A stretch of DNA of 64,000 nt. Origin: Perkinsus marinus ATCC 50983 (Eukaryota; Perkinsozoa; Perkinsida; Perkinsidae). Below the pieces are notes generated by a model. It made no database searches. It was given only the letters and a program-made list of their open reading frames with translations, and was not told the DNA's origin. Both the position numbers and the translations under genes were made by a program. The stretch covers positions 525,767-589,766 of the forward strand of contig NW_003206847.1 in NCBI RefSeq assembly GCF_000006405.1. The letters are read 5' to 3'. Shown here piece by piece: positions 4,570 through 43,700 of this stretch; the first letter of the stretch is position 1; every line of letters starts with the position of its first letter.

Positions 4570-6966
4570 ATGTCCAGCCTTGACAACGACACCTCAGCCT
4601 ATGAGAGTTTAGTGTCGGTAAATTCAATTCTCTTCTCAACTGCATTGCTCCTGACGTTCGTATGGGGGTAATAAACTTCCTTGTCGTTGACATGTAGCCC
4701 TAGGCCCTCAGGTACTTTATAAATACGGGGAAGTCTCGACATATATCGCAGTCGACTGGAGCTGTTATTATTGGGTTCATCATGGGAGTCGTAGGTCCCT
4801 GGTTCAATCCCCGGTCAGGGTTTGTCCTATAATCAGGTGATCAGGCTCCTAGGAGCAGGAGACCGTAAGGAGATATTAGGGATAAGTGCGGAACTGTTCT
4901 ATTTCGTAAAACACTAGATTCACTCGGGGTGGTCAGCCTGGTAGCTCCATAGGCACTCTTACCGCCTATCATATTCGAGGCCAGCTTCTCGCTCAACACG
5001 GATATGTTCATGAGCAATCTCACATCAATATTAGTCTTCGCGTTCATCGGTACCATAAATCGGTCAATTCACCATTCTAGTCAAGTACCTCTATAGGCAC
5101 AACCATATCGGCCTATGTTACGTCCATAGGGTTGTGGACGTTCTCTACTACCTGGCTGGTCGGCCTTAAGAATACCGATGCCCTGCGGGGTTACTGTATG
5201 ACATTTGGGGCTCTCATCTCCAGTGAGTAGCATCCTGCCCTCCTCAGCAACAGCCTATTGAAGGTACCGATCCAGTAGCAGTGATGGCGCTCATGAGGGG
5301 GTCCAAATACCGACCCAATAAGACATTGCATTCTCTGGTCTTCGGTGAGAGCGTCTTGAACGATGCAGTGGCAATCGTCTTGTTTGCATCCTATCAACGT
5401 GAGTGCTCTTCATACCCCTCATGCTGGGATTTCCTCTACTTCAGACGTTTACTTTAGCGATCAAGAAGTCCCGTCGGGGATTTCACGGAGTCCCCTATTG
5501 GGCTTCTTGACAGGTAGTAGTATGGGGTTATTTCACTTGACATTTCTGTCGAGTATCTACTCTCCCAATTTTCTATCGAGGAAGCGACTCGATGATCCAT
5601 CCCCATACCGCGAGATTGGTAGTGGTGTACTCGACTCACCTGATCGAACCCAGTCGCTGAGCTTAACACACAACTGCCAACTTCAGCATTCTAACGCCGC
5701 GGAGATCCTCTTGTAGTTTATATTCCATGATAGTTACGTTGGGGTCGATCATATTCGGTGTCCTCAGTGGAGCTCTGGTTAGCGGCACCTACCGCAAGTC
5801 GTAAGTACAGTATGGGTATGAGTGCATGTGGACTTCTCGTGCTGCTGCCAGGTCTCTGGGCGAGTACCCTAAATACGAGATAGCCTGTATGTTCTTGTCT
5901 ATTTACCTCACGTTCTCCCTAGCTGAGCTCCTTGGTCTGAGTGGAATCATGACGATATTCTTCTTTGGATTAGTAACGCGGCCATAAGCATTTCTACTAC
6001 CATCCTTCTGGCAGATTCTCGGTCGTTATAACTTCCACAACTTATCCAAAGCGTCACAAGTAGCTTCAAAACTGGTCTTCGAAACTATCGCTTTTATATC
6101 AGAGACTTTGGTACGGCGAAAGTCCTAGTGTTATCCATCCGTTGGTTTTCCAGGTCTTCCTTTACCTTGGCGTAGTAGCTTGCATGTCTATAGGAGAGTA
6201 TCATTGGAACCTCTTACTGATAATCTTCACTATGTTACTCATTGTAAAGGGGCTCCTACAACACAGCATGCTGATGTGATCTCCTGCAGGTGTTCGCTAG
6301 AGCGTGTAATGTGTTCCCTCTAGCATGGGTCTTAAACCATTCAACTCGACATGAGCCTATCTCTCGGAACTCCCAGATTGTACGTATCCTATTACCAAGT
6401 CCTCGACCGTCCTTGCCAGGTGTTGTGGCTGGCAGGAATAAGAGGAGCTATTGCCTTCGTTCTGATGTTACGTGTACCCGCTAGAGTTGGTGATGATACC
6501 CGAGATCTCCTCGTCACCACTACTATATCAGTAATAAGGAGGAGGGAAGGAGGTCAGTCGACCTAGCTTGGTCTATCAGGTGGTTTTCATTACAACACTA
6601 GCAGGAGAGTCCCTGGTAGAGCGCGTCGCTGTTATGTTGGGGGAGTTGCGGCCTGTAGTAGGCGTTCTATCATCACACGACGCAACGACTGAGCCGGAGA
6701 TTACTATTTCTGGTTCAACTCTGGATACTCCTCTATTTTATGTAATACCTCTCCTCCGTGAATACCCTCAGCTTGGATAGGTGCCGCCGTCTGGTGCACC
6801 TACTGGTCAAGCAACGTTGACTATGGAGCTCGCCGAGAGGCTCAGTGGGGCGATCGAGTACGTGGATCGGAAATATATTCAACGGCATCTTGGGGGGGCA
6901 GACGATCAGTCCATGCTTGAGGACGCTAGCAGTCATCATCATCTAAGTGACTTTTCTCAGCAGTGA
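4570..6966 (+). CDS. Na+/H+ exchanger (NHE/CPA1 family)
   Basis: Membrane antiporter exchanging Na+ for H+, for pH and volume control. The frame joins across about ten GT-AG introns of mostly 39-68 nt, starting at ATG 4570 (MSSLDNDTSAYESLV). Hallmarks in order are a TM helix LLLTFVWGYF, LLPPIIFEASFSL, TFGALISSTDPVAVMALM, LHSLVFGESVLNDAVAIVLF (the ion-translocation ND pair), FSLAELLGLSGIMTIFFFGL, NLSKASQVASKLVFETIAF and GIRGAIAFVL (the conserved arginine helix). The tail after TM12 is short and ends in LSDFSQQ, much shorter than animal NHE regulatory tails. Exon limits between 5516 and 5717 are unresolved. One intron carries a tRNA-like core (4791-4836); a second candidate is at about 5619-5686. 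Confidence 0.9.
4791..4836 (+). other. 46-nt intron with tRNA T-arm-like core
   Basis: GT-AG intron between exons encoding ...GFIMGV and VIRLLGAG of the exchanger; the reading frame requires its removal. It contains GGTTCAATCCCCGG, a near-consensus tRNA T-arm (Pol III B box), flanked by CCCTG and CAGGG, then TTTG. Read on the sense strand it matches the antisense strand of the WDR82 intron at 22999-23044 almost base for base. Confidence 0.85.
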
Positions 6967-7731
6967 GGGGCTCATTTGACATATCAGTTCAGACCACACA
7001 TCTACACACTCATATGGACCCAGTATTGACCCTGATACGTATTATGAAGAGAGCGAAGCCAGACGCCTAGCGATGAACCGAGCAGTTGTTTTCGAATAAC
7101 GCATCACTGGACATGGTGGTCGCTTCCATGCTGCGTTCTATCATGATTATCTCGCTTCCATTATGCCTCTATTATTCCCGTCTAACACTAATCCAGTGTA
7201 TACTTCTGTAAGAATTTCAAACGTTCATTATCCCCAGCGATGTGGTTGTGTTCAGCACAGTTACCAAGTCGGATGTTACAAGTTAGATCGCTGAATTCCC
7301 ACCTTAGAACCACAGATTAACGACAACTCTGAGATACCGGTTCTGCCAATAGGCATTCTGCCAACTAAGCGTTCAACCGTATCAGTCGTGCCAGGAGAAT
7401 AATTATAGAACAGAGGCCGTACAAGATCTGACAAGAAGCTGATGGATCTTTAATCGTGCGTTTAGTTTCCTCCCAAGATGTCCGCAGTCATTCGTGATTG
7501 GTCGACATTCTCGATAACCGTTTGCTAATCAGCAGCCCCAACCTGATTGGAGTTATGCACAAATCGTATGCTCCGTTCCGCAGCACGTACCCCTCATCCC
7601 TAACATAATGCTATCGCCGGTACCACTCAGATCGACGATGACGACACAGTGGTGGTCATGCTAGCAATAGGGAAGCGGAATGGTACCAAGAGACCCTAGC
7701 TTCTACTCGAACGCAACAAGTCTGGAGGGAG
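6967..7731. other. Intergenic stretch, nothing recognised
   Basis: Convergent interval between the stop codons of the exchanger (+) and the methyltransferase (-). No coding frame, RNA gene or repeat was recognised. It should contain both 3' UTRs and polyadenylation signals. Confidence 0.5.
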
Positions 7732-8901: not shown

Positions 8902-8915
8902 AAAATCAAAGGCAA

Positions 8916-9054
8916 CTATAACTCCCCATTGAGATACTATAGCGCTATACAGCGAGGTATATGATGATAATATGACGTGGATGATGATAATACTACTAAG
9001 TAGATATGTGTACGTTTGAGTAACAACAATAGATTCGGGTTCAATTCCCAGCAC
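8916..9054 (-). other. Candidate intron with T-arm-like core near its donor
   Basis: The donor GTGCTGGGAATTGAACCCG begins at 9054; the acceptor TTATAG ends at 8916. Within 7 nt of the donor lies the inverse of GGGTTCAATTCCCAG, a T-arm-like core. Splicing would join the upstream gene in frame to VAFDFMPPRP of TGS1. If it is not spliced, the upstream gene stops within the core (TGA at 9043-9041). Confidence 0.5.
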
Positions 9055-11433
9055 CTCCTATTTGAATAACATTCGAGTCCTCTTCCTCCGAAGCATCAGT
9101 ATCAGCCGTGCGTTCTCCAAAGGGTACCATAGTCGTATCCTCTTCCGACGATGACACCGACGATCCACACCCACCCTCAAGGTCCACACTCTGCGACACA
9201 ACAGAGTTGTCCCCTTCGTCATCCCTACCATCCTACCTCCACATCACCCCTTGCCAATGGCTGCTGGGCCGCTACCTTATTGAACCACTTCATATCAGAT
9301 GCCGCCAGCTGGCCTATCATATGGTCTCGTATGGCAAACTAATACCAACAACATCACCAGGAGCAACCCTCAGAAAGCACCTACTCGTATTGCTCTTATC
9401 CTCCTACTCACCTGCCCACGGACTCGTAGACTTCGAAAGCCCCATTCGATTTCACTCCAGCTCAATCCAGTGACAGACGTGCCTTCAGAGCTTGACTCCA
9501 CCCACTTAAACCGAGGATCATCTCCCTGAACATCATGAGAATGTGTTTCGGCAAAAGCGCGCGCCCTGTTGATCGATAATGTCTCCATCGACTCACCTCC
9601 AGTTCAGGATCTTCCATCCGCAGCACAAACTGCGAGAAGTCGTCCATGCAAAAATACATATCCTCTCGATACAGTCGACTATAGCCCTACCACACCATCA
9701 TCACTTCCTACCCACACCACCCCCTCCATTAGCTCACCGCCAAGCCCCCACCAGCCGAGTCCGTCGCTGGTAGCACATACAGTGGGGAGTACTCTAGCCA
9801 CAGATAGGCCGTGTCGATCTTCTCGGGTCCACGATAGGGTTGCAGGAAACGCAAAGATGCAGGGGACGAACCAACCCCACCCGTCTCGTCCTTCACACCT
9901 AAACCCTCAACCAGTGGAAGAGAATATACACCTGGTCAAATACATGTATTCATAACGATGAGCAAATTCCGAAAAAAATTGCAGAAAATTCTCCCGAATT
10001 TTCCAACTTTGATTCGCCTCTAAGTCTATATAATACACTGAGTAAAACCCCGAGCTCAACCGCACATACATTCCAAGACCTCTACCAACCCGATCCTCAC
10101 CAGCTGTTGAATACAACTGTATAGTAGCCTCGTCCACAAGGGGACTGCCTGGGCCCACCAACGGCTCTACTGATATGATCTGAAATCATAATGACCACTG
10201 CAAATAGAAGACACAAATAACAATTACAGTGAAAGCTAGAGTCGGGCGTTGAGACCTTCTGGTCCTGAATCTGCTAGTGATACCGTTACGCTCCACCTTG
10301 AGGAAATGCGTCACTGGCGACAGCATTTCCACCTGACGAGAGACAAACAGGGAAACCCGTCAGTGAATTTTCCACAAGTTCACCAAAATGATTCGAAAGC
10401 AACAAGCCGTTACCTTCAAGGCTATTACGATCTCATCATTACCATTCCATTTCCAAAACCAACTAAATGCACTACTACCCCTACTACTTCAATGAGGACC
10501 TTGAGACCGTTGAGATCAGTCGGAGTGTCCGTAGGGCTGAAGCGGCCATCATGCACTACAGCTGACACCAAGTCGCTATCGGCAGTGTAGGTCAGCTGGG
10601 CCTGAGCAAGTCTCCTATGGGACTAGTCATCCTCCTACTCCTCCTAGCGACCACTCTAGCCAGCACCAATGAATGTTACGACGAGGGACGATTTGAAACT
10701 CATCTATATGTCGACATCCTCTCGTTAGAAGCGTGTCCAACATCCCAGGACGCCTCTGAGGCCCTATCCGTTGCTACCGTGTCCAGGTCCCGTCCAGCGA
10801 TTGTAATATACCTATCCTTAGCCCTAGAGGTGGATCCCGACGTCGCTCGTTGCTTCTGGAATAACGACATCCCAAGGGTAGTGATAGCAAGGAATGTGAC
10901 TGACCACCTTGGTAGTAGAGAGGAGCCTAGACCTCTTGGAGGAGTTGCAACAACACCACAAGCGTTGGGCCCTCAGTAGAGGGTTATGGGCTAACAAATC
11001 ACCAGCGGCGATACGGATGTCCATCACCTGAGTATAAAAACCTGATGAATATCAACAGCCGAGCATCAGTGCCGACCTACCATTCCAACATCATCTTTAG
11101 TGATCGGCAGTCCTCTAGGAATAGGTTGGTACATCATCACTCTGCTAACCACCACCGGATGCTCAGCACGACGACGTCGCTTCGTCTGTTGATACCTTGA
11201 AGGCTCCGTCGACTCCGCCTCACTAGAGCTCGTCTGAAGAGCCTTTTCGTGGTGTCACCATCCTATCACCACTTGTATTACCTCACTGGTTGCAGGTACT
11301 GCCAGGGTAGCCTCTTGGTCGCCCATCTCCTCATCAGAAGAGCGCTCTGGGGACGGTGATGATGATGCCTATTCAACAGATCGAGAGCCCACCATACCTA
11401 AGCCTTCCCTACCTCTCGACCTCTGTATCCCAT
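9041..11433 (-). CDS. Rxt3-like motif protein (putative histone deacetylase-complex factor)
   Basis: Assembled from about ten short exons starting at ATG 11433 (MGYRGREASSSPSPERSSD). The N-terminus is acidic and Ser-rich, followed by a KRRRR cluster that looks like a nuclear signal. Central exons encode TYTADSDLVSAVVHDGRF and, after an intron, VERNGITSRFR. These resemble the YTDDSD-V--V-H-G and RNG--SR signatures of the Rxt3 family, an Rpd3L/Sin3 deacetylase-complex subunit. Later exons encode RFLQPYRGPEKIDTAYLWLE and GDDPRFKWVESS, then an acidic tail (ASEEEDSNVIQI). Several exon borders are my best guess. It either ends at 9041 or is spliced into TGS1. A plus-strand frame at 10617-10979 with a hydrophobic start overlaps these exons and is judged antisense noise. 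Confidence 0.5.
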
Positions 11434-12797: not shown

Positions 12798-12872
12798 GTG
12801 CTTTCCAACCTCCAGGGAAGCGGTGATACTTCATGAGTCATTACATCACTTACACGATGAAGATGTACAAAA

Positions 12873-12952
12873 TAACAGCTGCGGGATTCGAACCCGCGCC
12901 CTTTCGGACCAGCGCCTGAAGCTGGCGCCTTAGACCGCTCGGCCAAACTGTC
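12873..12952 (-). tRNA. tRNA-Leu(CAG)
   Basis: The 80-nt reverse-strand sequence folds as a type II tRNA. The acceptor strands GACAGTT and AGCTGTT pair over seven positions (two G-U), and the D arm GGCCGAGCGGTCTAAGGC carries a normal A box. The anticodon stem CCAGC/GCTGG encloses TTCAGGC (anticodon CAG), there is a short variable arm, and the T arm is GCGGGTTCGAATCCCGC. The discriminator is A. A T-rich trailer (TTTTG) follows as Pol III terminator. No intron. Confidence 0.95.
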
Positions 12953-16690: not shown

Positions 16691-18193
16691 CTACTTACCT
16701 TCACATGACGGGAACTCGCCCAGTTCTAAATCGCCTACCCAATCAGGAGACGTCCTTGTGCTGACCGAGGAAATCTTTCGAGGCTTGCCGCTTTTGGCAG
16801 TGCCAGAAGACGGCACTGTCCTCGGGTACTCCTCGTCGTCATCAGATACTCCAGGAGATGAGATTGACTTACCGACTGTTCGGAAGTCGTTGGGAACCTG
16901 ACCACGCCTCACCATCATAACGATCACTTATGTGCAGTTATACGAGCTTACGAAGTGAGCAAAGGTCACCCATATGCACGGTACTGTATAGGCTGCGACC
17001 ACCTGGACAGGAGTAGTAGTATTAAGTTTGGACAACTCCGTGAACTTCCTACCACATCAACACTATAATGCGATCGAGAGGCCACAATAAGGAAGGCTTG
17101 CAGGATGGTAAGCAAGAGCACAAATATCTTGAGGTACTTGTTGCAACTATATCGGACTGAAAATGATCCCCGGTTCGAACCGCACATACTGCATTTTTCT
17201 CACATATTCCACATGTAACGATAATCGTGTACATCATATGACCCGAGAATATCAGATCACTACAGCCTCCCGAAGTGAAAAGTCTAGTCAGAATAACCCC
17301 CCAGTCCTTCGGTGGATTGAACTCATTCTCTGCGCAGTGTTCCGCCGAGCCTGGCAGTAACTGCAAAACAATAAACTCACTGCCCCCCTCCCACAGGCGA
17401 CACTGTTCACTCACTGTGACCATGAACGTTGCTAGCCGAGCATACGTTGCCAAACTACCTACCATTCCCCACCGCCACAGCATATTCATAGCGCCTGAAA
17501 ATAACAAAAATAGGCGGAGCGAAGCAGACCCTCCTTACGATGAGGAAATCTGAAGAATAGTGGTCGGAGAACATAACCAAGTCCCAACATCAAACTGAAG
17601 TAGTTGGTTATGTCACCAGGAGCAACCTGAATCGTCGAGAACAGCAATAATAATAACCACCAGAAAACAGGCATCATACTACCGCCGAATTGGCAAGACC
17701 AGGGCCAAACCATTCAAATGGGAAATCATGAATGGGATTTTTCGACCCCTTATATGGACCGTAACTGACCAAAGCATGAGAATCTCTACTGCTTCGCTCC
17801 GCTAAACTTACACGTGGTATTTCGCAGCATAATAATAGGCCATATTGTGCACCCAGTTATGCACTATTAATGTCAATCCGAACCATACGATACCCCACCT
17901 GCCCGGAACCTCACGCACGACTATCTTATCGAAAAACCCTACCACGCTCCGCCCTTCAACTCCAACGGCCATGCCTCTTTGATATAATCAATTCTAACCC
18001 GCCAAATTGCCTTTATCCGATCCGATCTTGAAGTCCTCATGCACTCCGGCCGAGTCCCTTCCTCTCGAACATCGGCTTTCACCGTCACAGGAAGAGGCAC
18101 CAGTTCTGGTACGTCTTTATCAGTACCATTCGTCATCAGACCTCTCCCGGTTTCCATAGTTGTCACTAAAACTGTCAAGTCGGGTGGCGACAT
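16691..18193 (-). CDS. Sphingomyelin synthase-like phosphotransferase, paralogue 1
   Basis: Multi-pass membrane enzyme of the SMS/PAP2_C family, which moves a phosphocholine or phosphoethanolamine headgroup onto ceramide. Start taken at ATG 18193 (MSPPDLTVLV). Exons join as ...KGGAW-WGIVWFGLTLIVHNWVHN, a TM block with VAPGDITNYFSLMLGLGY, NMLWRWGMVGSLATYAR, then LPGSAEHC and the D3-type motif CSDLIFSGHM. After an intron come the D4-type HYSVDVVVAAY and an acidic Ser-rich tail ending LGEFPSCEGK. The catalytic His-His-Asp triad (SGH, HYSVD) is present. The D3 Gly and Thr of animal SMS are replaced by Ser and Met, so the headgroup specificity cannot be called. A tandem paralogue lies at 19.6-21.4 kb. 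Confidence 0.8.
17157..17203 (-). other. 47-nt intron with tRNA 3'-end-like core (antisense)
   Basis: The sense strand reads GTGAGAAAAATGCAG, GGTTCGAACCGGGG and TTTTCAG. On the antisense strand this is CCCCGGTTCGAACC, a short acceptor-like strand, GCA and TTTTT, as in a tRNA 3' end with Pol III terminator. It separates ...TIIVTCGI from RYSCNKYLKIFV of paralogue 1. Confidence 0.85.
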
Positions 18194-19573: not shown

Positions 19574-21372
19574 TCATGGCGGTGTATGGTTTGGTATAGC
19601 AGTAGTCGGAATGTCACTTCCAACGCCTAGTTCAATATCTGACACTGCGGTCGAGCCACTTGCTCGTCCTTGAGTGGGTGACTGTAAATCCGGTGAGTCA
19701 CCATAGCAGCTAGCTTCAGTGACCGCCGCATCAAGACTTGTATTTTGTGGCTGACCGGTGATCTCTGGAGGGGTCTCCACTTCGAAATCATTAGGAACCT
19801 ATACAACGCAATGTCTGTTGACGGTGGAAATGTGGACCGTACAAAGTAAGCGAACGTACACCATATGCACGGCACTGCGTATGCAGCAACAACCTGACAT
19901 AATGAGGAATGCTGAAAACCTATAAACAAGAAAGGCGAACATACCACATCCACTGTGTTGTGTCGACGTGACGCGATGATAAGGAAGCCCTGTAGTATAT
20001 TGAGTACAAGTGCAAAGTATTTGATGGACCAGTGTTCACCGTAACGGACTAAAGTTGACATGTCCGGGGATCGAACCGTGGACCTCCAGCAACGATACAC
20101 TTACACAATGCGCATGTAACGCTGATAACGTAGAGCATATGTCCCGAGAATATAAGGTCACTGCAGCCTCCAGAAACGAAAATACGTTTGAACACCTCGC
20201 CAGCCGTAGTCGGTGGGTTGAAGTTTGCCTCAGAACAATGCTCAGCTGGACCAGGCAAGATCTACGGAGAGATACTCTTGTGCTTGCGTGCTACCATCCG
20301 GAAAATGGGAATATACATAAAATTCTGAGGAAATTTTGGAATTTCTCATTGGTTTTTGTATGCTTCTATGTACCCGAACTCAGCTGTAAACTTCTATAAT
20401 TAGTGAGGAAGCTCCCGAGCTCAGCTGAGGAGAGCGAACGTACATCCCTCCAACACTAATCCCGACTTACCGTGAATATGAATGATGCCAATCTCGCATA
20501 AGTTGCCAGACTAGCCACCACTGCCCAACGCCAGAGTATATTCATCGTGCCTAGCCACAGTAACACATGATCGATAATTTCCCAACACATATATCCTCAC
20601 GAAAAGGGAAGGGGAAAAGTAGAGGCCGGAGAGCATAGAGAACACCCATCACAATTGTACAGTATAGGATGACGTCGCCAGGGGCCGGCTGAAAAACAAG
20701 AGCACTTCTGCAGCGTCACGCGCCACGAAATTCCAATCCATCAAAAGCTTACAGTCCAGTCCACTGGCCCAGGGCCGAAGAGCTCAAATAGAAGGTCCAC
20801 AACAGGGTTGCCAGGACGACCATATGGACCATACCTGAGAGTCGTTGTTGATCAGCAGCAGCAGCGGTAGCAACTACTCACACGCCATATTGTCCAGCTA
20901 GCATGTAGACACAGTTGTGTACCCAGTTGTGGATAAGGAGGGTTATAATGAAGAATAATATACCCCACCTGATGATAACAACGAGGCGACATAACGTAAT
21001 ACCAATCGTATCACACTGAAAGCAAAGTTAAATGCCATGAAATTGAACTATACGACCAAGTAGCAGCCAACAGTAAAGATCCTAATAGTAACGTCATGTC
21101 GTTGTGTATACCATCGCTCTAACAGCAGTCCGAAACGACTGCAAACACTACAAAATGCAAGGCCATACCAAGGAAGTAGACACGATAGAAAGTCTCTATA
21201 ATAGCGAAGACAGGTATCATACTCACCAGGCGCCCTTCTTGAATATAGCCCACTCGACGGGCCAAGCCAGACGGGCATAATCAATTCGAGATCGATTGAA
21301 TCTCTTCACACTAGCAACGATCCTCCTCCATAGGGATCTGCCTTTTGAAGGGGCTTCCAGCACAGCTACCAT
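19574..21372 (-). CDS. Sphingomyelin synthase-like phosphotransferase, paralogue 2
   Basis: Tandem paralogue of the gene at 16.7-18.2 kb, same strand. Start taken at ATG 21372 (MVAVLEAPSKGRSLWRRI). Aligned blocks are RIDYARLAWPVEW, then W-WGILFFIITLLIHNWVHN, NILWRWAVVASLATYARLAS, LPGPAEHC, the D3-type CSDLIFSGHM, and the D4-type HNTVDVVVAAYAVPCIWC. The tail differs from paralogue 1 (TGQPQNTSLDAAVTEASC...) and ends IPNHTPP. The catalytic His/His/Asp positions are kept, although the D4 Tyr is Asn. Introns are longer than in paralogue 1. One holds a dispersed repeat (copy B); another, at the same position as in paralogue 1, holds a tRNA-like core. Confidence 0.8.
20049..20104 (-). other. 56-nt intron with tRNA T-arm-like core (sense)
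   Basis: GTAAGT donor at 20104 and TTTAG acceptor at 20049. It contains GGTCCACGGTTCGATCCCC, a T-arm core in sense orientation. It sits at the same codon position as the intron at 17157-17203 of the tandem paralogue (the next exon begins RYGEHWSIKYF), but there the longer match runs in the opposite orientation. Confidence 0.85.
20308..20447 (-). repeat. Dispersed ~130-180 bp repeat, copy B (inverted)
   Basis: Reverse complement aligns with copy A at 13728-13884 over most of its length (CAGCTGAGCTC, TTCCTCAC, TTCGGGTACA, AAACCAATGAGAAATTCC, TCAGAATTTT). It lies inside the intron of synthase paralogue 2 between the exons encoding YARLASFIFT and LPGPAEHC, so it is transcribed and must be spliced out. 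Confidence 0.65.
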
Positions 21373-21711: not shown

Positions 21712-22782
21712 TCAATGGACACTATTAGCAGTGGAGGAGAGCTTAGCCAGGACGCTCTGTACGTTAGTGGCAATATCGTCTATAGACACGCTCTGAAATT
21801 CCAACACTTTCTCTTCCCCGAAGTGCTCCCGACAGTCATCAAGTATCTACAACGATGTAAATATGCCCTCACCGAGGATCGAACCCGGGAGGAGTGTAGC
21901 ATACCGTCTGGAATATTTCACATTCAACATTCTCCTTTATCTTCGCCTCCGTGTAATGACGTTGCTCCAGGCGTGACCAAAGAGCATCCGTAGAACACCT
22001 TAGGACCACTACCAAGTCGAACCTGAGCAGTAATACCATCACAATAACCAACTCTACCTTAAAAGCTACTGCACGTAACTCGGTGAAAAATCGATGAGAA
22101 AACACAGAAAATATGTTCCTCAGGCGATGTTACATGAAAAATGGACACCAAATTAATATCATAATCAATGGTGATTTCCCTGAAATGTCATAGTCAATTT
22201 CCAGCTGGATTTGAGTACTACAACCCTTCTCCCAAACGATAGAACATCCTCCTATAGTAAACTTATTCTCGCGATTACACAAGACGCTCCAGCCGAGCTG
22301 TTTTCGATACCTTCGAAAAACCTAGCTCACTGTTGAATACACCCATTCTGCGAATAACGCAGATACGACATTAATTTCGAGCTGCAGTTCCAATGATACC
22401 CATTTACACTATGCACCTCTACAATTTAGTTTTATCCACATCACTGCTACACCCTACTATTACCACTCAGGCGGGAGGAAATCCGGCGAGTGAAAATCGA
22501 TAACGACATTTTCCTTGCCGAAAACTCCGAGGCTCTCGAGATGCTGCTCAACAGCATCCTCATCGAATATGCTACAGTTATGGTCGTCATCCCACTCGCT
22601 GTACAAATGCTCCGCTGCAACTAAAGGAAAAGAATCTTAGGTTAGACTTGGTAAGATTCAGATTAAGTACTAGTCTTGCCAAGCTCTATAACCCGACATG
22701 ATCCTATGGCAGACCCCAACTCCTTAGAAAACGTTGATTTCCCAACACCTGGCGTACCTGCTACCAGAACAGAGTACGACAT
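21712..22782 (-). CDS. AK6: Adenylate kinase isoenzyme 6 / Fap7 (hCINAP)
   Basis: Nuclear P-loop NMP kinase/ATPase that, as Fap7, works with Rps14 in late 18S rRNA maturation. Start ATG 22782: MSYSVLVAGTPGVGKSTFSK carries the Walker A loop GTPGVGKST. The next exon encodes AAEHLYSEWDDDHNCSIFDE, DEDAVEQHLESL and VVIDFHSPDFLPPEW, matching the family core LYDGYDEEYDC...DYHGCDFFPERW. After an intron of about 450 nt come FDLVVVLRCSTDALWSRLEQ and RHYTEAKIKENVECEIFQT, the LID-type region. The last exon, after a tRNA-core intron, encodes ILDDCREHFGEEKV and ends STANSVH. Four exons in total; length near the family norm. Confidence 0.92.
21847..21904 (-). other. 58-nt intron with tRNA T-arm-like core (sense)
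   Basis: GTATGC donor at 21904, TTGTAG acceptor at 21847. The middle reads CTCCCGGGTTCGATCCTCGG, then TGAGGGC and ATATTT. Its removal joins ...CEIFQT to ILDDCREHF of AK6. Confidence 0.85.
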
Positions 22783-22980: not shown

Positions 22981-25128
22981 TCAGTAACCAAGAGTAACCT
23001 GAGGTCCCCGGTTCGATCCCCGGCAGCCGCATTTCTCCACTCACCTGTTGCTTGGCTATCGCCACCGGATCCGTCTGCGTCCCAATAGGTGCCGTGAACT
23101 GTTTTGGTATCCACAACGCCACTGCGGCAGCTGCCGATGCTATCAACGACCTCGTCGGAGAGAACTTAACGCATCTAGGGTATCCAGAATGGCCCTTTAG
23201 GATGGCGACCGGCTTGGGCTCGCAGGCTTGCACATTAACAGGGTCCTCACTCATGGCCTGTTCCTGTGCCCCTTTGGTGAGAGTCGGCCATACATAGATA
23301 CTACCACCAGGCACTCCACAGAGAACGTAACTGAATCACGATGAACCGAAATATTCCAAATATGTCCATACCGCGCGTCCGGCGAAAATGTCGGCCTGAG
23401 CCCATCCCGCTCTGGCAAGCTCTTCCACGTTTGCGACCCCGACTGCAAGTGGGGATCATCAAATTTATAAGTCGCTCGCAAGCGCCCAGAAAAAGAGTCT
23501 ATGGCGAACAGGTCTCCCGCAGCTGTCGAACATAAAAGGTATCTGAACGGGAATCAAATCTTAGCGGAGCGATGCAAACAATAACGTACTTTCCACAAGG
23601 TGAGAATAGCATCGACCTCAAAGGGCTTCCTTGCGTAAATGGCGACAAGTCGAATGCCTCAAACTCCCCCTGAAATACCACGAATAGAGACCCCATAAAG
23701 GAATACCAAACAAATTTCCATTCCGTAGAACTAAAGTACGTGAAGAGCAACCTCCCGACCATCACTACTACTACCCTATCAAATTGGCGATTGTCAAACA
23801 TATGCACTTTAGCGATGGGCTTCTTGCCAGCATCCCCTGTTGGTGTAGAACTCGATACAGCAAAGACCAAGCCTTGAGTATCATAGGTCGCACATGGACC
23901 ACCGAGAATGCCACTAGAACTACCTGATGCAATGACAACAACAACGACTGTCCGAGCAGTTCGCCAGAGTGAACTTTCAAATTCGTTCGAGAGTAGTTCC
24001 CCTCATAAGAGTCTTATGATAAGACCCAGTGACCCCTTAGAAAAATTATTCTTTCGCAAGACCCAGTGACATAGGTCAGCACCATGTAGCAATACAAGAA
24101 CATGACGAACACGTTGACGACGAAAAAATTTCGAGGAAGTCCTTGTTGGTTTCTGAGCACTTCTGCCGTTATTCATATCTAAACTCCTATAAGGAGTGCG
24201 GAAACTCTTGAGGGAAGCGAATATATATTCCTACTCCACCACTGGGCCAACGACCATGCACACCCATAAGCCCCCAAGTATTACCCTTAGTGACTTGTTC
24301 CTGACTATAGACCCGAGCTACTGGTCTTTCCTTTCTTAGGTCCCACATAAGACAAGTCGAATCACCACCACTAGCTGTACTCAAAGATGTTGACAAGAAT
24401 TGATCCTCGTACCTTTCACAATGAGATCCTCACTTTGCGATGCACACTACGAGCCTGCTATTATTACGGATGGACCTTCAGAGAGGACACTGGCCCTGTA
24501 TGCCCTTTGAAATACCGCAAGAACTTGTTCTCATATAGATCCCAATACCTCAGCGAATCTGCCAATACCAACAAAAACTCGATCAGAGGCCTTTAAGGGG
24601 TCATTATTGTATGATCTCAGATCCAACAGATTCCAAACGGGAGTATCCACACTGCGACTACATTCCTTAACCGGCCATCCCGACTATTACGATCGAAATC
24701 AACCCGACTCGAACAGAGCGCCGAGTTAGTGCCACTATGAACAAACTGTATATTATCGCAGCCGTATTTTCTGGAGTAGAGTAACTTGTGGCGAACACCT
24801 GCATGGAGGACCTCAGGTAGAACCCTAGTCGTCGTCGTAGTGGGCCTTGCCCTTTTCTGTGTCATATATACTAACACTTTCATCATCACTACTTGCTATA
24901 AGGTACCTCCCATCAGATGTAAAGTCAATACTATTAACCTGAATACACACACCCTATGGACCATACGATCCTGTCTAGACCTACTACCCTCTTAGTGGCA
25001 TCCTTAAAGACCTTACCAACAGCCATATTAGAGAGTATCTCATCAGTGAGCCCGATAGGTGCCGGAGGAGTAGTAGTAGCCCCAGCAGTGCTGGACTTAG
25101 CACCACCAACCTTGGACCCCTTATACAT
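22981..25128 (-). CDS. WDR82: WDR82/Swd2-type WD40 protein
   Basis: WD40 adaptor of Set1/COMPASS histone H3K4 methyltransferase and of Pol II termination complexes. Start ATG 25128 with a Ser/Thr/Pro-rich extension before LTDEILSNMAVGKVFKDAT, which matches the family start. Exons follow as SIDFTSDGRYLIASSDDESV, LLYSRKYGCDNIQFVHSG, RYWDLYENKFLRYFKGHTG, DQFLSTSLSTASGGDSTCLM, CATYDTQGLVFAVSSS, SPFTQGSPLRSMLFSPCGKY, PGGSIYVWPTLTKG and CVKFSPTRSLIASAAAAVAL with WIPKQ, the equivalent of the FWLP end. The last short exon encodes VTLGY and stops at 22981. About ten exons; one intron has a GC-AG donor. The LTR array begins only 41 bp upstream of the start codon. Confidence 0.9.
22999..23044 (-). other. 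46-nt intron with tRNA 3'-end-like core (antisense)
   Basis: GTGAGT donor at 23044, CCTCAG acceptor at 22999. The antisense strand reads GGTCCCCGGTTCGATCCCCG, then GCAGCCGCA and TTTC, which is T arm, acceptor strand, discriminator A and T-rich trailer. It lacks any D or anticodon arm, so it is not a tRNA gene. It matches the exchanger intron 4791-4836 in opposite orientation. Confidence 0.85.
24105..24231 (-). repeat. Dispersed ~130-180 bp repeat, copy C (inverted)
   Basis: More diverged copy in the WDR82 intron between the exons encoding RPVARVYSQEQ and GGPCATYDTQGL. Shared blocks with copy B are AAATTT, TTGGTTT, ACTCCTATAA, GGAAACTC and AGCGAATATAT. Its ends are uncertain. Confidence 0.45.
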
Positions 25129-25445: not shown

Positions 25446-25470
25446 GTTCTAAGAGATGTGCAGTTATGAG

Positions 25471-33200: not shown

Positions 33201-36010
33201 CCAGTTCGCCAGCGGAGATGGTGTACAAACCTGTGAGGAGGAGGCGACGGAGTAGAAACCTGCTTGGAGGGCACCGGATCGGAGTAGACCACCAAGGTGT
33301 CCGTGACAGGCAGCGAGGCTAGAGTCACCAAGGGGCAAGGCTCTGAGAAGAGCAACTGCATGAAGGAAGTAGAAACCGAGCCGTTGGTGAGGTCGTCGTC
33401 AGCAACGTTGGAGAAGTCGTCGACCACAGGAAGGGGAATGACGGAGTCCTTGTTGAAGCAAGACTCGTGCTCATCCAAGTTGACAGTTGGAGGTTGTGTG
33501 TCACCGAGGTCGATGGAGTTAAGGCCTACAGCCACCTTGTTAGGAGGATCATCCGGAGGTGCAGATCTAGAGAGGTCCACGGCGTCGATGAAGGCCTTCC
33601 ATGCAGTAGCTACTTGAGGTGTCGTGTCCACGAGGGAGATGATGCGATCACCAGAAGGATTGAAGACCCACAGAACTGGATTTTGTACACGGCGAAGAAC
33701 GTCACAGCTGAAGATGAAGTCTCGAGCAAGGCCATGAACAAGAGCAATGAAAGTCTGAACCCGTAGGCCTTTATGACAGTAAGTGATCTTGTAGATGGGA
33801 CACGAGTTCACCCGACGGGACACCGCTAGAGTAGCAACACAGGTCACACCGGTAGGCTCAAGAGCGACATTGGCTTGTTGAAGGCGAAGAAGGCCTGAGT
33901 CGGAGCAAGCGAGTAGCTGAGAGCCGGAGTCCAGCAGCCCAGTGAAACCAGGACAACGACCATCCTTCGTGAGGAAGTTGAACTCCACGTTGCGTAAGGA
34001 TGATGGCATATCTCGGAGAGACTGAAGAGTGTTGTCGAGGTTGAGAACAGGACTGGCGATTACTGGAAGTGGCGATGTGGTTGGCTGTGTGGTAGAACAG
34101 AAGGCCTTCAGAGGACCATTTGTCGTTGAAGAAGGCGGGGTGAACGATAAGGACTCAACCGATAAGGAAAGAGTCATGGTGTCGAGAGTCGGGTCAGTAG
34201 ACTTGGTCAGCGAGTTAGGGCAGTGTGAAGTATGATGCTGTTGTGAGCAGCGGTCACACCTTACCGAGTCCCGCTTGGGACAGACACCAGTACACTTGAC
34301 AGAAGGCCTATTGCAGTAGGGACACCTACCTTCCTTCTTGAGAGGGGACGGCGCAGGGCAGAAGCTGGCACCAGCCTTGCAGTTAGGATCACCATCCATG
34401 CATCGGGTACACCGAAGCTTCGGCCGCTGACGCCGTTGACGATCGTGAGAACCCTTGCCATGACCATTGGAGCCCTGTGTAGGTTGCTGAGTAGACGACT
34501 GGTTGGTTGTCGTTGTAGACGTTGAGGCAGTCATCTGGTTGAGCGGTACCTTAGGGAGAGGGTCATCCTTGCGGCCTTGAGAAGGGTCAGATCTACCACG
34601 CTGGTGTGAAGATAGTTGACGAAGGCGGTCAAGTTCCACGAGCTCATGTAGAAGTTGACGGTAGGTTAAGGCCTTCATGCGCGTGAGAGCAGCTTCATGA
34701 TGAGCGCCTCGGAGGCTGGCAGTCAGCTTGGACGCGAGGAACCGGTCCTCGAAAGGATAACCTTGCTGACGCTCGATGTCGAGGCGGATAGAGTCGAAGG
34801 CCTTCAAGTAGTCACCAAGTTGTTGGCGATCACCCATGTAAAGGCTGTTCCACTTGACGAGCTTCCTGATGTAGTCCGTGTCACTGGATTTGTGTAACTG
34901 GGAGAGAAGCTGGCAGATGCGCATGACCTCACGAGCGCAAGCACTGTGAGTCTGCTGAGGTAAAGGTCTGACCTCCCTGCTGACAGTCTCGTCCAAGAGT
35001 CTGGTTAGGAAGAAGTAGTACTCGAGAGCACCCCAACCATTAGAGCACGAGAGATGGTTGACAGACTTGATAACATCAGCCACTGCACGGTCGTCGTTGA
35101 AGCCGGTGAACTGTCGCTTGTTGGGTAGATCAGCAGAGTTGGCTTCACGCTTGGCGTAGTGGCGAGTGGTGCTGTCAATAGCATCATTGTTGCCAGAGAA
35201 GGGAGCGAACTGCGGGACCTCAAAGTTGACTCCATGAGTACCGAGGGCCGGAGGAGGCTGAGGGACCGGAGGTAGGAGTGGAAAACCAGCACCGTATCCG
35301 GTAGGGTAGCCGTAGTTCATAGCCATCGGAGCTGCAGAAGGTAGGACCTGGTTGACAGAAGGTAATACCACGTGATGGGGAGGAAGGCCTTCAGCGGAAG
35401 GGACGTGCTGATATTGGTTAAGGCCTTCAGAGGCACCATATGTAACGGGATTGGTGCTGCCTGCTGGTAGAGAACCTTCGCTTACCGCGGGACCGTGGCC
35501 AATGCTAGCGTGAGAACCCTGAGGTATAACAGGCTGATGTGGATGTGGACCAGAAGCTACATAGGGTGGAGCGTGAGATGGCATCGGCGGATAAGGAAAG
35601 ACTCCTCCAGATGAGGAGGACGCTGATGCTTCACCCGTAGCTTGGAAGGAATGCTGTTGAGGAGGAAGTGGCGGCTCCGTAGGATCAGCAATGTTGTTGA
35701 TGAAGGCCTCCGAGATATCCTCGAGCTCCAGAGTAGTGGAACTTTGTAGAGCTTTGCCATGAGGGACCGTCGAGGAGGACATTCTCCACGTAGTCTTGAA
35801 GGTCTCATTGACCCAAGCACCGACGAGGGGCTTGTTGTCAATAGTGTGTAGATTCACCGTGTCTCCAAGCAGCTTGGAGGCGATAGAACACTGGCCGAAC
35901 TCGATGAGGATGTAGAAGGCCGACAGGTCATCATTCTTCTTGACGACATAGGAGGGGACCCAGGCATCCCTGTCGGGAAGCTTAATGAAGCGTAGACAAG
36001 GGATAGACAT
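30239..36010 (-). pseudogene. Interrupted Gag-Pol of the BEL/Pao-like element
   Basis: Reads from ATG 36010. The first block (to about 32804) encodes a Gag part, a Cys-rich knuckle region (CTRCMDGDPNC, CPYCNRPSVKC, CDRCSQQHHTSHC), an aspartic protease motif LLDSGSQLLA and the start of a reverse transcriptase (FWLHHFPVIKK, RPVFDGSPL, VALDIVQAFLQIELP). The DNA element at 31814-32803 breaks the frame there. It resumes with VEDQRCLGFFW, QRVCFGMPDSPF, the catalytic LMDDI and RNase H pieces (LFTDSSDTAGAALLY, FELDTLASSLEWAA, VFTDSS). After that the frame shifts and passes straight into a Ser/Thr-rich C-terminal tail ending DNLKMTKR, so the rest of RNase H and the whole integrase are missing. Confidence 0.8.
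31814..32803. mobile_element. Non-autonomous hAT-like DNA element, 990 bp
   Basis: The ends are 13-bp inverted repeats CATATCCCGGCAT and ATGCCGGGGTATG (one mismatch), flanked by an 8-bp target duplication GACGAGAG (31806-31813 and 32804-32811). Removing the element plus one duplicate restores the reverse transcriptase frame exactly, which proves the boundaries. Both subterminal regions are packed with TTCTCG/CGAGAA palindromic motifs, including a perfect 11-bp hairpin GCGAGTCTCGA near the left end, as expected for transposase binding sites. No transposase frame is present. The 8-bp duplication suggests the hAT superfamily. Confidence 0.85.
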
Positions 36011-36027
36011 GATCCCGGTAGAAGAGA

Positions 36028-36303
36028 TGTGCAGTTATGAGTGGTTCTAGGCGAGGGACTCTGTGAGAGAGATAACCGCACAACTTAACTCAAGATCTCA
36101 GATAGGATAGATCTAGAGTGGCAGAGTAGAGAGCGATAGAGCGGTCCAGTGCGTGGAACGTAGACACGCTGAAGCAACTACCCAAGCTTAGTAGCTGATC
36201 TAATTCGCAAACCGCAACCGTTACTGAAATGGTGAAACGGTGAAACGGTTAGATACGATCTTGCTCACTTGAGTTTTCTCAATGGTACTGTCGTCACAGG
36301 ACA
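36028..36303 (-). repeat. LTR3, 276 bp (5' LTR of the minus-strand element)
   Basis: TG...CA ends, followed by the target duplicate CTAC. Read in the element's own direction it precedes the Gag start codon by 17 bp. The sequence just inside it (TCTCTTCTACCGGGATC) does not begin with TGG, so a standard primer-binding site to a tRNA 3' end is not evident. Confidence 0.9.
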
Positions 36304-39313: not shown

Positions 39314-42300
39314 TCAGAGGCCAATCGTCACTTTTTCGTTCTGTTGCTTGAGAGCTTCGAGCATCTTCTTCCTCTCGGGAACTCCATCAAGGTTGTGGTA
39401 GGCGTGATCCAGGATTTGCCGAACGATCTGCGAGAACAGAATCGAAACTCCATAGTGCCACCGACCGCCCCCAGGGAGAACACATACCTCTTCCTCCCTA
39501 TCGGGGCCCCACACAAGATTAACAGGCAACCTGAGCACGTGGAGATGCCCATGGTCGTCTCCCACGGCCATGAGTGACTTCCCCTAAGAACACTCGTGCC
39601 CATTCTCCATAGAATCACGAGTGATACCGTAGTGTCTACCTCTGGACAGAAGGTCATAGATGTGAGACCAGCCGCAGTGACCGGAAAGGACATCAGAGGT
39701 TGATGACTCTGGTCGGTAAAGTCCCAGACGTCCACACTACCATCGACTCTGCCCAAGTAAAGCACCTGTCCAACGAAGCACATTAACCGTCAAGTTGATA
39801 GTATTGGTATTTGATATCAATGTTCCGCGTATCGCATAAGCCTGCCAGTCTATAATCACAGTTTACGAAGTGTATACTAGACCCAGGCGTTCGTCATTTC
39901 AATTCTTCCAATACTTCACTTTAAATTTTCCCATGATCCCTCTACGAAGTCATATGAGCAACCAGTGTTCACCTCCGCCCTACCGCGGGCCGTGACGGGG
40001 AGCAAGCTCCGCACGCAAAGTAGTTGCTTGGTGCCGCACTCCGGAATATAGGCTCGCGTATTCTGTCAGCCAGGGACTTGACAGGCCTCGCTGTCTCCAC
40101 TTCGTCCCCCTCCTCTTCCTCCTCATCCATGTTCGCCCTTCTAGGACGAGTAAGAGACGGTGCGGAACCTCCAATATACCAGAGGGAGAACTCCCAGTCC
40201 GATACAGCTAACATGAGGTCCTGAGGAAAAAGGCAGGGCAGTGGCAGCAGCCTACAGTGGAGAAACGACTCTATTGTTTCTACTTTGTAGAAATACATGT
40301 GAGTACTACGCGTATTGCGGAAAACACGAGCAGAGTCGTTGAAGTTGTATGATGGTTCTCTCACAGAGAAGCCCTAGAGGATTATTCATTTATCTCCTAC
40401 AGTATCCACATCTAATAATTGTTCCCAAGGACTAATGGGGGGTCTACAGTTCGAGTCTCGAGACAGTGCCCCATAGGAAGTATGACCCTGTGATCGTCTC
40501 GGCCTCATAGGGCCATTCATAACTCACACTCATCCTATGAGACTCCCTCAGCTCCAAAAGAGGTCGAAAAGTCTTGCTCACTTCACAGAGGGACTTCACC
40601 AACCTGCCCACGACTGCTGCCACTAGACAACGCGCATGCCATGCGGCTTTTACTCAGGCTTCTTCTCAGCGCTACCCACGGCCGCCCAATCTCCAAAGAT
40701 GACTTCACCCTCCTCCGTCGTGGCGAAGAAGTTACTCAGGAAGTTCGATTCTCGATTCTAACAAGAACATCAATTCTTCCTCAGAATCTTCCCTATGGTC
40801 ACCTCTTGAGCCTTCTGGGTGAGATTCATAGAGGCCAGAGGCAGTATATGGGTACACCCCATTTCCGTGCCAGAGTCCTGTCGTTGCAGCTGGACACTAT
40901 GTATAGGCCGCCAGGTGAAGTCATGTTCGCCTAGCCCACAGACTACCACCCTCCCATGCGAGACTGCTTACCTCTCACTACGGCGTCCCTAGCACTCTGG
41001 AAGTCCCAAAGGAAGACCTGCCCGTCACCAGCGACTGTCACGAAGAACTTAGCCTTCTCGACAGTTTCCTCTAACATGAACAACATACCATAGCCGAAAG
41101 CAGCTGTAGTTGGCAAACAGGCCCACCCTCTCCTTCCAATGTGCTCCTATTGTCAACGCATTTCCCCTTGCGTTCCACATCCAGCCAATGCGGCAACCAC
41201 GCGATCGACCGACAGGCTCGTTTGTGCGAGTCGTCTATAGTAGAGACTAGCCTGAACATAAGGCACCTCCAGACAGGGCAAGGGCAATATATAGGAATAT
41301 TATACTTGTGCTTTATCTCCAGTGCTGGCTTGTTCTTTGTAGTCGTCATCACCGTCTTGACCTTCTCTTTTGACTTCTCAACGTCCCCTTTGTCGTGGCC
41401 TTCTTTCTCTCTCTTCTTCCTAGCCACCTTCCCCCGTTTCGCAGCAGTAACGCCTAGCTCCTGGTCCGTCACGCGCCACAGCACCATCTACAACAGTTCG
41501 GTTCGACCGTGATATGGGACCCTCAGGGGTTACCTGGCCTGTGATGAGTCCACCGACCACGAAACGACGGTCCGTCGGGCAGAAGGAGAAGGTGACGACC
41601 TCGCTTGGGCTCAGCAGTGCCGCGTGGGGTGACAGAGGATTGTGGAATGACCACAGCAGGATGCAGGATGGACGAGGCTGGGAAGAAGAAAGTCATCGAC
41701 AATCCAGAGCTCCTATACCGTCATAATGACGGTCACTTCACAACATGAAATGGGTATAAGATGACCAGTAGAGGGAAATTATATATATTCATATTTTTTA
41801 CTAGTTGAACATGAGCTCAAACCAGTCACCCTGGGTAGTATCGTGTGACTGAGTCACGCTACACTAACATCAGCTCGCCAAGGAAACCCTCTGGCGCTCC
41901 TCCAATGGAGGCAGCATCCTATCCCACCGCTCACCTTGCCCATGGTCTCGAGTCGTTGGCCATAGGTAAGGTTGTCCAAGTACGATGCAGCAACAACATC
42001 GGGCTCTTCTGGCACCCAATGGATGCACTCAATCCTCTTCTCTCTGGTGTAGGTAACATCATGGAAGTTACGCCACTGACCAAACCGGCAGCTGCTGCCC
42101 ACGTAGTCAACGGCAGTGAGGAGGATGCCCCTACCTCGGTGAGTCCAGTTTCAGCTCCTGAGCCGAGACTTGCATCCAGCATAGCCATGCGGGACTCGTC
42201 CACACCTACCACTGGAGCTCAGCCAGATCAGGAGCAATCGACATGGACCTACCGAGTTTATCAAAGTCCCGTGCAAATACATCCATCGTCTCGTTTTGCT

Positions 42301-42660
42301 GTAATGCTTGCTCTATGGCAAAGTTGATCTCAGGTTTCAATATGAACTCCCTGAGGGACGCTTTTGCGTGCTTCGACAGCCTCATGCCACTAGCGACTTG
42401 CGCCTCGTATTGGACACCTACGTTCAGTCAAGTCGTCACTACAATCGCAGTCACAAAACTCTACAAGCGTTGACCGGCTCAAAGCGAGCGGTCTGCGTAG
42501 TGCTGCTCTTGGGAGGCAAGCACGCTTGTATAGAATGCTCGTCTACACGCCTTCGCACCACAGTCGGCTGTGTTGTCTCCTCCACTTCCCTTGGCTTCAG
42601 CTCCGGGAACTCATACGATATTGGGTTGTACGTACCTCCAACACGTTACTTCTAGTACAA
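39314..42660 (-). CDS. DNAI3: Axonemal dynein intermediate chain, DNAI3/WDR63 type
   Basis: WD40 intermediate chain of the inner-arm (I1/f) dynein of motile cilia. Minus-strand exons in order: YEFPELKPREVEETTQPTVV and PPKSSTTQTARFEP; INFAIEQALQQNETMDVFAR, a hallmark of this family; ECIHWVPEEPDVVAASYLDN; MVVLWRVTDQELGVTAAKRG with a Lys-rich insert; RPLLELRESHRMSVSYEWPY; DLMLAVSDWEFSLWYIGG; LYLGRVDGSVDVWDFTDQSH; MAVGDDHGHLHVLRLPVNLV; and a short helical end LEALKQQNEKVTIGL. WD repeats are clear, but many exon borders and the N-terminus are not fixed. It may begin in the unresolved frames to the right. Confidence 0.75.
40432..40486 (-). other. Candidate 55-nt intron with T-arm-like core (antisense)
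   Basis: Possible donor GTCATAC at 40486 after YEAETITG, acceptor CATTAG at 40432. The antisense strand reads CTACAGTTCGAGTCTCG, weakly T-arm-like. The downstream exon is not confirmed, so this is the weakest of the set. Confidence 0.4.
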
Positions 42661-42749
42661 CAACCATTGACACAGACGCTTACCACTAGAGAAGTGGACA
42701 GGTCCCCCCAACTCTGATGCTGGCTTGGTCACAATGTACCGAGCTAATG

Positions 42750-43700
42750 ACCGCCTCTGGCGGTCGTGCATCACTGGAGGTGGGCCTCGAATTTCAATAT
42801 CAGTCATCTCGTGCGTGGTAGAGGTCCACTCCCGACTTGTTAGAGGTATATCTCTGAGTATCTATAGTGAATACGGTACGGATGGCTACAGGCGATGCGC
42901 CAACACACTTTGTCATGGAAAGTGAGCTGCTCCTCAGGTTTGGCTCTAGAAGGAGACCAGCAAGCCATTTATGGTGGGAAATGGTAAGATGAGATAGGAA
43001 GCTCACTTCTATCACAACAAGAATTGGAAAGTCAACCTCCTTCAACATTTTCTATAGCAATAACGTCTTTTTGAGGTGCAGTCTTCGAGACTATCGTCGA
43101 GGCATCCGAGCTCCCCTCGGCCAGCACGGTGCACTCTCGATAGACCGTTTCATAGTCACCCTTACATGCGAATGAGAGTCCACGATGTTCCCCTGTGCGG
43201 TCAATAGGTAGACAGAAGCCACAAAGAACTACTCGAATCAGTCGCCCGTAGTAAAGTTGGTGTAGCTGATAATGCACCAAGCCACCATCCAATAGACCCA
43301 GGTTCAAAACATGCCACTTGCACCGTACCGATTAGCAAACACATTACCTCGGGCCCACCCGAATCATTGACCCACACAATAGCCATCACGGTATCATCTA
43401 CGGAAATTTTGTGCAAAGAAGTCAGACGATCACCGCATAGCATGTTTGGGGTATACCCCTACAATGGTAGACCCAATATAGGAGTATTCAATCAAACTTA
43501 CTTGCACCACCACCGAAGTGATGACAACAGCAGCAGCAGCAGCCTCTACATTGAGTAAATGCAATATGACGTTTTCACAAGCTAACGATGAGCCGTGTGT
43601 AGTCTCGCACGTCGTTGGCAGTGATGACTTCGTCGAGGTCAATCGAATGACCTTCTTTAGAGATCCCTTGTATGGATAGATCGCCCTTTGTCAGTAGTTC
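42750..43700 (-). CDS. Hypothetical multi-exon protein
   Basis: Coding-looking blocks are GISKEGHSIDLDEVITANDV with RDYTRLI (about 43665-43590), then, after an acceptor, YTPNMLCGDRLTSLHKIS and DDTVMAIVWVNDSGGPE (to 43348), then an intron to 43266, and a block reading RLIRVVLCGFCLPIDRTG or an alternative frame. The middle resembles the first blade of a WD40 domain. It may be the N-terminal part of the dynein chain gene or a separate gene; I could not decide. Confidence 0.35.
43266..43347 (-). other. Candidate 82-nt intron with T-arm-like core (antisense)
   Basis: GTAATG donor directly after VNDSGGPE and TATCAG acceptor. The antisense strand contains ACCCAGGTTCAAAAC, matching the T-arm core partly. 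The next exon is not confirmed. Confidence 0.45.

Follow-up and report, generated by a model that had tools for sequence, protein, structure and literature searches.

A tRNA 3'-end-like element recurs in short introns of unrelated genes of Perkinsus marinus

In a 64,000-nucleotide stretch of the genome of Perkinsus marinus ATCC 50983 (hereafter the window; C69:525767-589766), five short introns of recognisable genes carry an element of about 36 nt that resembles the 3' end of a tRNA, nucleotides 44-73 followed by a T-run, and that occurs in both orientations. Similar elements are found at several hundred places in the genome, and alignment to homologues of known structure places copies within introns of unrelated genes. 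Our tentative reading, to which we give somewhat less than an even chance, is that these are old introner-like introns seeded by sequence of tRNA or short interspersed element (SINE) type, of which the core and a 3' block were later kept.

Five short introns of the window

The introns, with the position of the element in each, are:

4791..4836, + strand: intron of NHE (Na+/H+ exchanger), 46 nt; element sense, 4793-4828
17157..17203, - strand: intron of synthase paralogue 1 (syn1), 47 nt; element antisense to the gene, 17164-17199 on the + strand
20049..20104, - strand: intron of synthase paralogue 2 (syn2), 56 nt; element sense, 20050-20085 on the - strand
21847..21904, - strand: intron of AK6, 58 nt; element sense, 21858-21893 on the - strand
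22999..23044, - strand: intron of a WDR82-like gene, 46 nt; element antisense, 23002-23037 on the + strand

All five start with GT and end with AG on the gene strand, and none of their lengths (46, 47, 56, 58 and 46 nt) is a multiple of 3. With a profile of the element they score 35.2 (NHE), 21.5 (syn1), 33.5 (syn2), 37.7 (AK6) and 41.7 (WDR82), which bears out the original prediction that these segments are short introns with a T-arm core; the copies used for the profile all come from other parts of the genome except that of NHE, which is included as locus L001, and the NHE score is thus not independent. The borders are not equally firm. For syn1, a dynamic-programming (DP) model gives 17147-17189 instead of 17157-17203; for the WDR82-like gene, in which the WD40 match is confined to the upstream exons, it favours a later 3' splice site and an intron of 65 nt, so that the 3' end of this intron is less sure. 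The hand-spliced exons of NHE match PF00999 with 25.9 bits, slightly below the cut-off of 26.2, and the synthase paralogues are presumed to be sphingomyelin-synthase-like. The NHE and WDR82 introns had been described as equal in length and alignable nearly base for base: in the intervals listed both are indeed 46 nt long (65 nt for WDR82 in the DP model) and the likeness is clear in the core, but it does not run base for base, the two elements being identical at 24 of 36 positions in an ungapped comparison, with a weak 3' block.

At a profile score of at least 16, the window holds six matches, one of which is a true tRNA gene, compared with a mean of 0.07 and a maximum of 1 in 30 dinucleotide shuffles. 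This tRNA gene, which served as the T-arm reference, and one weaker match are:

12873..12952, - strand: tRNA-Leu(CAG) gene, found by ARAGORN and by Rfam (RF00005, 55.3 bits); the sole tRNA found in the window
9030..9065, + strand: weak T-arm-like match, score 11.7; unsupported above chance

The tRNA-Leu gene scores 23.7 with the element profile, and ARAGORN and Rfam (at the gathering threshold), run on the whole window, found no tRNA besides it. Matches scoring at least 10 occur in the shuffled windows at a mean of 0.97. Four weaker intron cases had also been proposed and do not hold up: the best profile scores are 0.6 (5619-5686), -12.6 (8916-9054), -2.8 (40432-40486) and 6.0 (43266-43347). 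The second of these intervals ends inside the 9030-9065 match, cutting it; three of the four beat most random stretches of equal length (fraction reaching the score 0.013, 0.033 and 0.003), but these are the top picks from 64 kb of sequence.

Abundance and extent of the element

The genome searched comprises 54.46 Mb in 347 contigs. The strict 14-mer GGTTCRATCCYNGG occurs at 521 places (248 forward, 273 reverse) and its reversed-pattern control at 2 (1 + 1); the pattern AGGTCNCNNGTTCRANNCNNNG occurs at 453 places (225 + 228), with 3 for the reversed control (2 + 1); and the 21-mer GGTCCCGGGTTCGATCCCTGG, allowing up to 3 mismatches, occurs at 666 places (328 + 338), 16 of them exact, with 1 for the reversed control (0 + 1). 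These counts put the core far above chance, and, as had been claimed, it lies within introns of genes unrelated to each other, in either orientation. An explanation by chance look-alikes of a T arm, or by real tRNA genes that went unrecognised, accounts for the four weak window cases and for the 9030-9065 match, which are at or near chance; for the strong copies it is refuted by the reversed-pattern controls and by ARAGORN, which in its bacterial-code setting recognises a tRNA gene in 0 of 37 loci (L002-L038), and their T stems are not paired beyond what independence gives. We regard this explanation as having practically no standing.

The conserved span is sharp-edged. In a profile of 67 non-identical copies, of which eight are SINE-type and in which the core is fixed by the retrieval pattern, it spans -8 to about +28 relative to the core, with almost no information beyond; the consensus reads AGGTC[CG]C[AG]-GGTTCRATCC[CT]NGG-NN[AG][GC]G[AG]CATTTTTC. 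We take this span to correspond to nucleotides 44 to 73 of a tRNA plus a terminator-like T-run. The match to the B-box consensus lies in the GGTTCRA core and is present in all copies, as set by the way in which they were retrieved; past the T arm it continues into a discriminator-like A and then the T-run, so that the acceptor-like extension described in the original prediction reappears in the profile. The D and anticodon arms are absent, as had been claimed.

Among 40 tRNA loci fetched, the best matches to the element are tRNA-Val and tRNA-Thr, and of 100 listed AGGTCNCNNGTTCRANNCNNNG places 16 have a T arm identical to that of the tRNA-Val genes in locus L100. These tRNA-Val genes (CAC/AAC) stand in tandem on contig C56 (C56:74-3414), about 172 nt apart, three of them being recognised in L100 (C56:600-1300); eleven places with a T arm matching tRNA-Val are listed on this contig.

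Placement of copies in introns

In five genes the spliced translation can be aligned to a homologue of known structure across the junction left by the element intron. AK6 aligns to human AK6 structures with no gap at the junction (E 3e-11), and solved homologues are likewise aligned through the junction by the PP2A scaffold subunit PP2A-A (E 6e-10), DCAF13/Sof1 (E 1e-39, with the donor set by hand to the homologous position, giving a 53-nt intron), DDX41 (E 1e-30) and CBS (E 5e-41, with a two-residue gap four residues downstream of the junction and an upstream model that is partly poor). The element is sense in AK6 and DDX41, and antisense in PP2A-A, DCAF13 and CBS. Similar element introns are thereby found in at least four unrelated genes (AK6, PP2A-A, DCAF13, DDX41, CBS), to which NHE, WDR82 and the synthases are added. 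The homology-aligned introns measure 49, 53, 57, 58 and 80 nt (median 57); for 104 Perkinsus genes, excerpts of an earlier survey give introns of 39 to 1622 bp, mostly below 100 (PMC3101222).

Several exact copies can be read by eye as entire introns. One of them, L130, would be a whole intron of 40 nt by eye, without homology, from GTAGGTC...GGCATTTTTCAG (also written GTAGGTC...TTTTTCAG). In some introns the similarity to the element comes near both borders, as in the presumed intron L130 and in the 46-nt intron of NHE; elsewhere unique sequence flanks the element on one or both sides, as in the 80-nt intron of DDX41.

Placement was also compared with gene predictions, using a weak gene model with fixed splice weights that misses known genes of the window and four of its five strong introns, AK6 alone scoring above zero. 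With this model, 22 of 83 copies fall in predicted introns (13 antisense, 9 sense), compared with 40 of 600 decoys (Fisher p 3.7e-7); an earlier version of the model gave 15 of 67 copies and 26 of 400 decoys. Splice-site-like flanks, with a best score above 3, are found in 29% of 84 copies and in 9.6% with random flanks. The predicted enrichment in introns is therefore not refuted, in a weaker form of the check that uses decoy positions and random flanks in place of shuffled introns. The set of 84 copies includes at least four SINE-type copies (L010, L021, L046, L057) and counts L028 twice, once per strand, which affects the flank scores and the intron placement, as well as the AGGT-block counts and the test for target-site duplications (TSDs) reported below.

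Variation along the element

The copies look descended from tRNA when considered by blocks, yet resemble a binding site when considered by single positions, because the AGGT block acts as a unit, positions 66-69 vary, and the T-stem columns are independent of each other. In 67 profile-selected copies, a set distinct from the 67 copies of the profile, the AGGT block is all-or-none: all four letters are present in 22 (expected 9.8) and none in 9 (expected 1.4). Among the 15 copies with an identical 21-mer, positions 66-69 take 12 different tetramers, and ATTTT stands at its expected place in 10; when these 15 copies are excluded, pairwise distances show only a mild excess. A second class of elements can be made out by eye, with GGC[GA]CA before the core and a T-run that is weaker or often absent.

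Possible conservation between synthase paralogues

Five members of the synthase family (syn1, syn2, L118, L119 and L120) have one intron position in common. The element found there is sense in syn2 and L118, and antisense in syn1 and L120. The element of L118 scores 34.3 and differs from that of syn2 at 4 of 36 positions; the element of L120 scores 16.2 and differs from that of syn1 at 10 of 36. The corresponding differences at four-fold sites are 11 of 39 (syn2/L118) and 15 of 32 (syn1/L120), so that pooled the element differs at 14 of 72 positions and the four-fold sites at 26 of 71 (Fisher p 0.017); by pair, Fisher's test gives 0.058 and 0.084, respectively, and 0.031 combined. If the four-fold rate is taken as known, a binomial test gives 0.013 and 0.015, combined 0.0019; Fisher's test is the fairer form. 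As the element is present in both paralogue pairs, it is older than both splits. The comparison, with modest statistics and two pairs, suggests conservation of the element, which selection has probably, though not with certainty, retained in the sense and the antisense orientation alike. The synthase clusters on C69 (syn1/syn2) and at C236:50565-54758 are diverged from each other, possibly reflecting an old segmental duplication.

This result bears on the main rival of our reading, in which the element would be a DNA site under selection, a B box in extended form for TFIIIC or a similar factor, that gathers in introns as exons do not tolerate it and that did not create the introns. The lower divergence in two paralogue pairs of opposite orientation is what such a site would show, as are the occurrence of both orientations and the independent variation of motif positions; the places are also clustered, with 24 adjacent pairs less than 6 kb apart among the first 100 of the 521 places, compared with 5.6 expected (18 and 5.2, respectively, when contig C31 is left out). 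However, a plain B box requires neither the C72-A73-like pair nor the T-run 20 nt away, both of which are conserved, and has no need of an AGGT block that comes or goes as a whole; in many of the introns, short as they are, the element takes up most of the sequence, and the paralogue statistics are weak. We consider a selected site without a part in intron origin unlikely, while giving it more weight than remnant SINE insertions or movement by Dada transposons. Contig C31 (27.9 kb), with seven strict copies of the element, is the densest among the contigs listed.

A SINE-like repeat and other possible sources of tRNA sequence

The same genome contains a dispersed SINE-like repeat of about 350 nt (L102:60-345, L101, L106-L117; 40 copies scored of 148 candidates), with an A-box-like stretch recognised by eye and several short palindromes, and the 36-nt module is present in 14 of 14 aligned copies of it. 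The introns could accordingly have existed beforehand, have received remnants of this repeat or of tRNA pseudogenes, and have shrunk to about 50 nt since. Such a course would agree with a synthase intron position that may predate the element and with element introns that are slightly longer than others; but no SINE body is shared beyond the 36 nt, the 67 profiled copies, eight of SINE type, showing no conserved body or tail outside -8..+28, and shrinkage to about 50 nt would have had to occur many times independently. We judge it rather improbable.

Two other mobile elements lie in the window. A long interspersed element (LINE) at 25579-29673 (+) consists of one long frame with endonuclease (PF14529, PF03372) and reverse transcriptase (PF00078) domains; it is a possible mobiliser, and a blastn comparison of the repeat of about 350 nt with the window found no match to it. 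A probable Pao-type long terminal repeat (LTR) element occupies 30840-36034 (-), with PF05380 in 30840-31985 and a frame at 32618-36034 without a Pfam match. Outside the window, the otherwise similar loci L044 and L047 (C25/C26) differ in length by 34 nt near the element, in a segment that by eye is not the T-arm element.

A further source of tRNA fragments could be the Dada DNA transposons, which target tRNA genes. Excerpts of PMC3706591 describe an unusually large tRNA gene set in P. marinus, five Dada families residing in its tRNA-Ile, -Leu, -Gly and -Tyr genes, more than 500 copies of the targeted tRNA genes, and, in zebrafish, one-ended events flanked by tRNA fragments; the two classes of the element, which by eye resemble the 3' parts of class I and of Leu/Ser-type tRNAs, would suit this origin. 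Against it, Dada insertion should leave TSDs of 6-7 bp, none of which is seen in 84 copies, and of the five target sites that the same excerpts give for P. marinus, three fall within the A box and thus away from position 44. Movement by Dada elements is thus a very improbable source.

A proposed introner-like origin and the evidence against it

If the introns are introner-like, as we tentatively favour, they would be tiny spliceosomal introns with a body formed by a tRNA-like, RNA polymerase III (Pol III)-type piece of about 36 nt, made up of the last part of the variable loop, the T arm with the B box, C72-A73 and the T-run, and copies would have been inserted into genes both ways round. For a sense copy, the 5' splice site could be supplied by GT(R)AGGTC and the 3' end by the T-run with the CAG behind it; for an antisense copy, an A-run would come directly after GT, and GACCT-(Y)AG would form the end of the intron. 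The core and the GCATTTTT block would since have been kept better than silent sites, while T-stem pairing and positions 66-69 drifted. They were perhaps kept as a DNA motif bound by a TFIIIC-like protein, or in support of splicing. The origin from a tRNA or from the head of a SINE, the entry by insertion and the nature of any selection are the parts of this account that we infer.

A stronger form of this account holds that the 3' ends of tRNAs, or a minimal retroposon of Pol III type made of such an end, acted as ready-made mini-introns that seeded hundreds of introns in Perkinsus in both orientations, the B box being retained afterwards as a functional site within protein-coding genes. GTAGGT (nucleotides 42-47) would then provide the 5' splice site and the terminator T-run the polypyrimidine tract. 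To this version we assign a lesser probability and consider it doubtful.

A number of observations weigh against an origin by insertion. The most important comes from the synthases, where the element stands in opposite orientation at one intron position and so speaks against one simple insertion having created the intron at that place. In addition, L119 has at the shared position an intron of about 290 nt without the element (best profile score 0.3); the opposite orientation and the L119 intron together imply that the intron there may predate the element. The usual traces of movement are likewise missing: the longest word shared by the two flanks has a mean length of 3.29 in 84 copies, compared with 3.26 in shuffled pairs, which gives no sign of TSDs; no terminal inverted repeats (TIRs) are recognised by eye in the consensus; and no filled and empty site was found in the one pair compared, L043 and L099, which was rejected as a candidate since the two loci are not homologous.

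The T stem points in the same direction. The 51-63 pair is formed in 41 of 84 copies, with 41.4 expected under independence, and there is no residual covariation; in an earlier set of 67 copies the letters at these positions were A-C in 17, C-C in 13, A-T in 9, G-C in 8 and G-T in 8. As the stem is paired no more often than independence predicts, simple decay of tRNAs does not explain the copies, and maintenance of a T-arm hairpin by selection for pairing is rejected.

The introns themselves add further difficulties. That of DCAF13 holds the core and its 5' side only, the T-run-like stretch being exonic and shifted by two bases from the register; the element introns are slightly longer than other predicted introns, for which the median is 52 nt; and 61 of the 83 copies lie outside predicted introns. 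The splice scores of antisense copies exceed the null in the upper tail only, not in the mean, and by splice score alone the PP2A-A copy is assigned to the wrong strand. The original prediction had left a choice between a mobile tRNA-derived cassette and a selected role of the core. Both options survive, the mobile one without support from TSDs, TIRs, an empty site or T-stem covariation.

Relation to known systems and significance

Introners have been reported in 175 of 3,325 genomes, in families with median lengths of 30-654 nt, and excerpts of that survey describe most known ones as resembling DNA transposons, with TSDs or TIRs in some families only (PMC9860276); those of Amoebophrya have inverted and direct repeats, according to excerpts of PMC7789003. 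The Perkinsus element agrees with introners as portrayed in the excerpts of PMC9860276 in that unrelated genes have introns of similar sequence, its length falls within 30-654 nt, either orientation is possible, TSDs and TIRs are lacking in some families, and a splice site can be carried by the element. It differs in having a tRNA-3'-end-like core with a B box, in the 12 forms of positions 66-69 among 15 copies, in the lack of TSDs, TIRs or proof of recent movement, and in showing some signs of constraint after insertion. The main text of PMC9860276 contains none of tRNA, SINE or Perkinsus as a whole word, and among the papers listed in searches of openly licensed PubMed Central literature, no title or abstract opening describes introns that resemble a tRNA end.

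With tRNA-derived SINEs, represented in P. marinus by the repeat of about 350 nt, the element shares the T-arm/B-box module; in contrast to them, its other copies have no A box, body or tail in common beyond the 36 nt. With tRNA genes it shares nucleotides 44-73 and the T-run; unlike them, it has neither a D nor an anticodon arm, and its T stem is not maintained. In yeasts, extra-TFIIIC sites consist of a B box without an A box or a full tRNA. To judge by its sequence, the Perkinsus element would resemble these sites in the same respect; it differs from them by the added C72-A73-like pair and T-run, and many copies fill most of introns of 40-66 nt.

A TPR39-like protein encoded in the window is 98% identical to the P. 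marinus ATCC 50983 copy, 86% to that of P. olseni and 76% to that of P. chesapeaki. No Perkinsus protein appears among the 19 matches listed for TGS1 or the best 120 of 870 for CBS, lists that are restricted by word matching or truncated; the TPR39-like match is taken to decide that the genome belongs to Perkinsus and is nearest to P. marinus. As proteins of three Perkinsus species are public, gain, loss and constraint of the element should be countable across the genus.

The origin of new spliceosomal introns is a long-standing question, to which a tRNA-like, Pol III-type module would, if true, add a different source. The mini-intron account, if true, would tie Pol III sequence to the birth of spliceosomal introns; if the element is instead a selected B-box site, Perkinsus would carry a dense set of TFIIIC-type sites within its coding genes.

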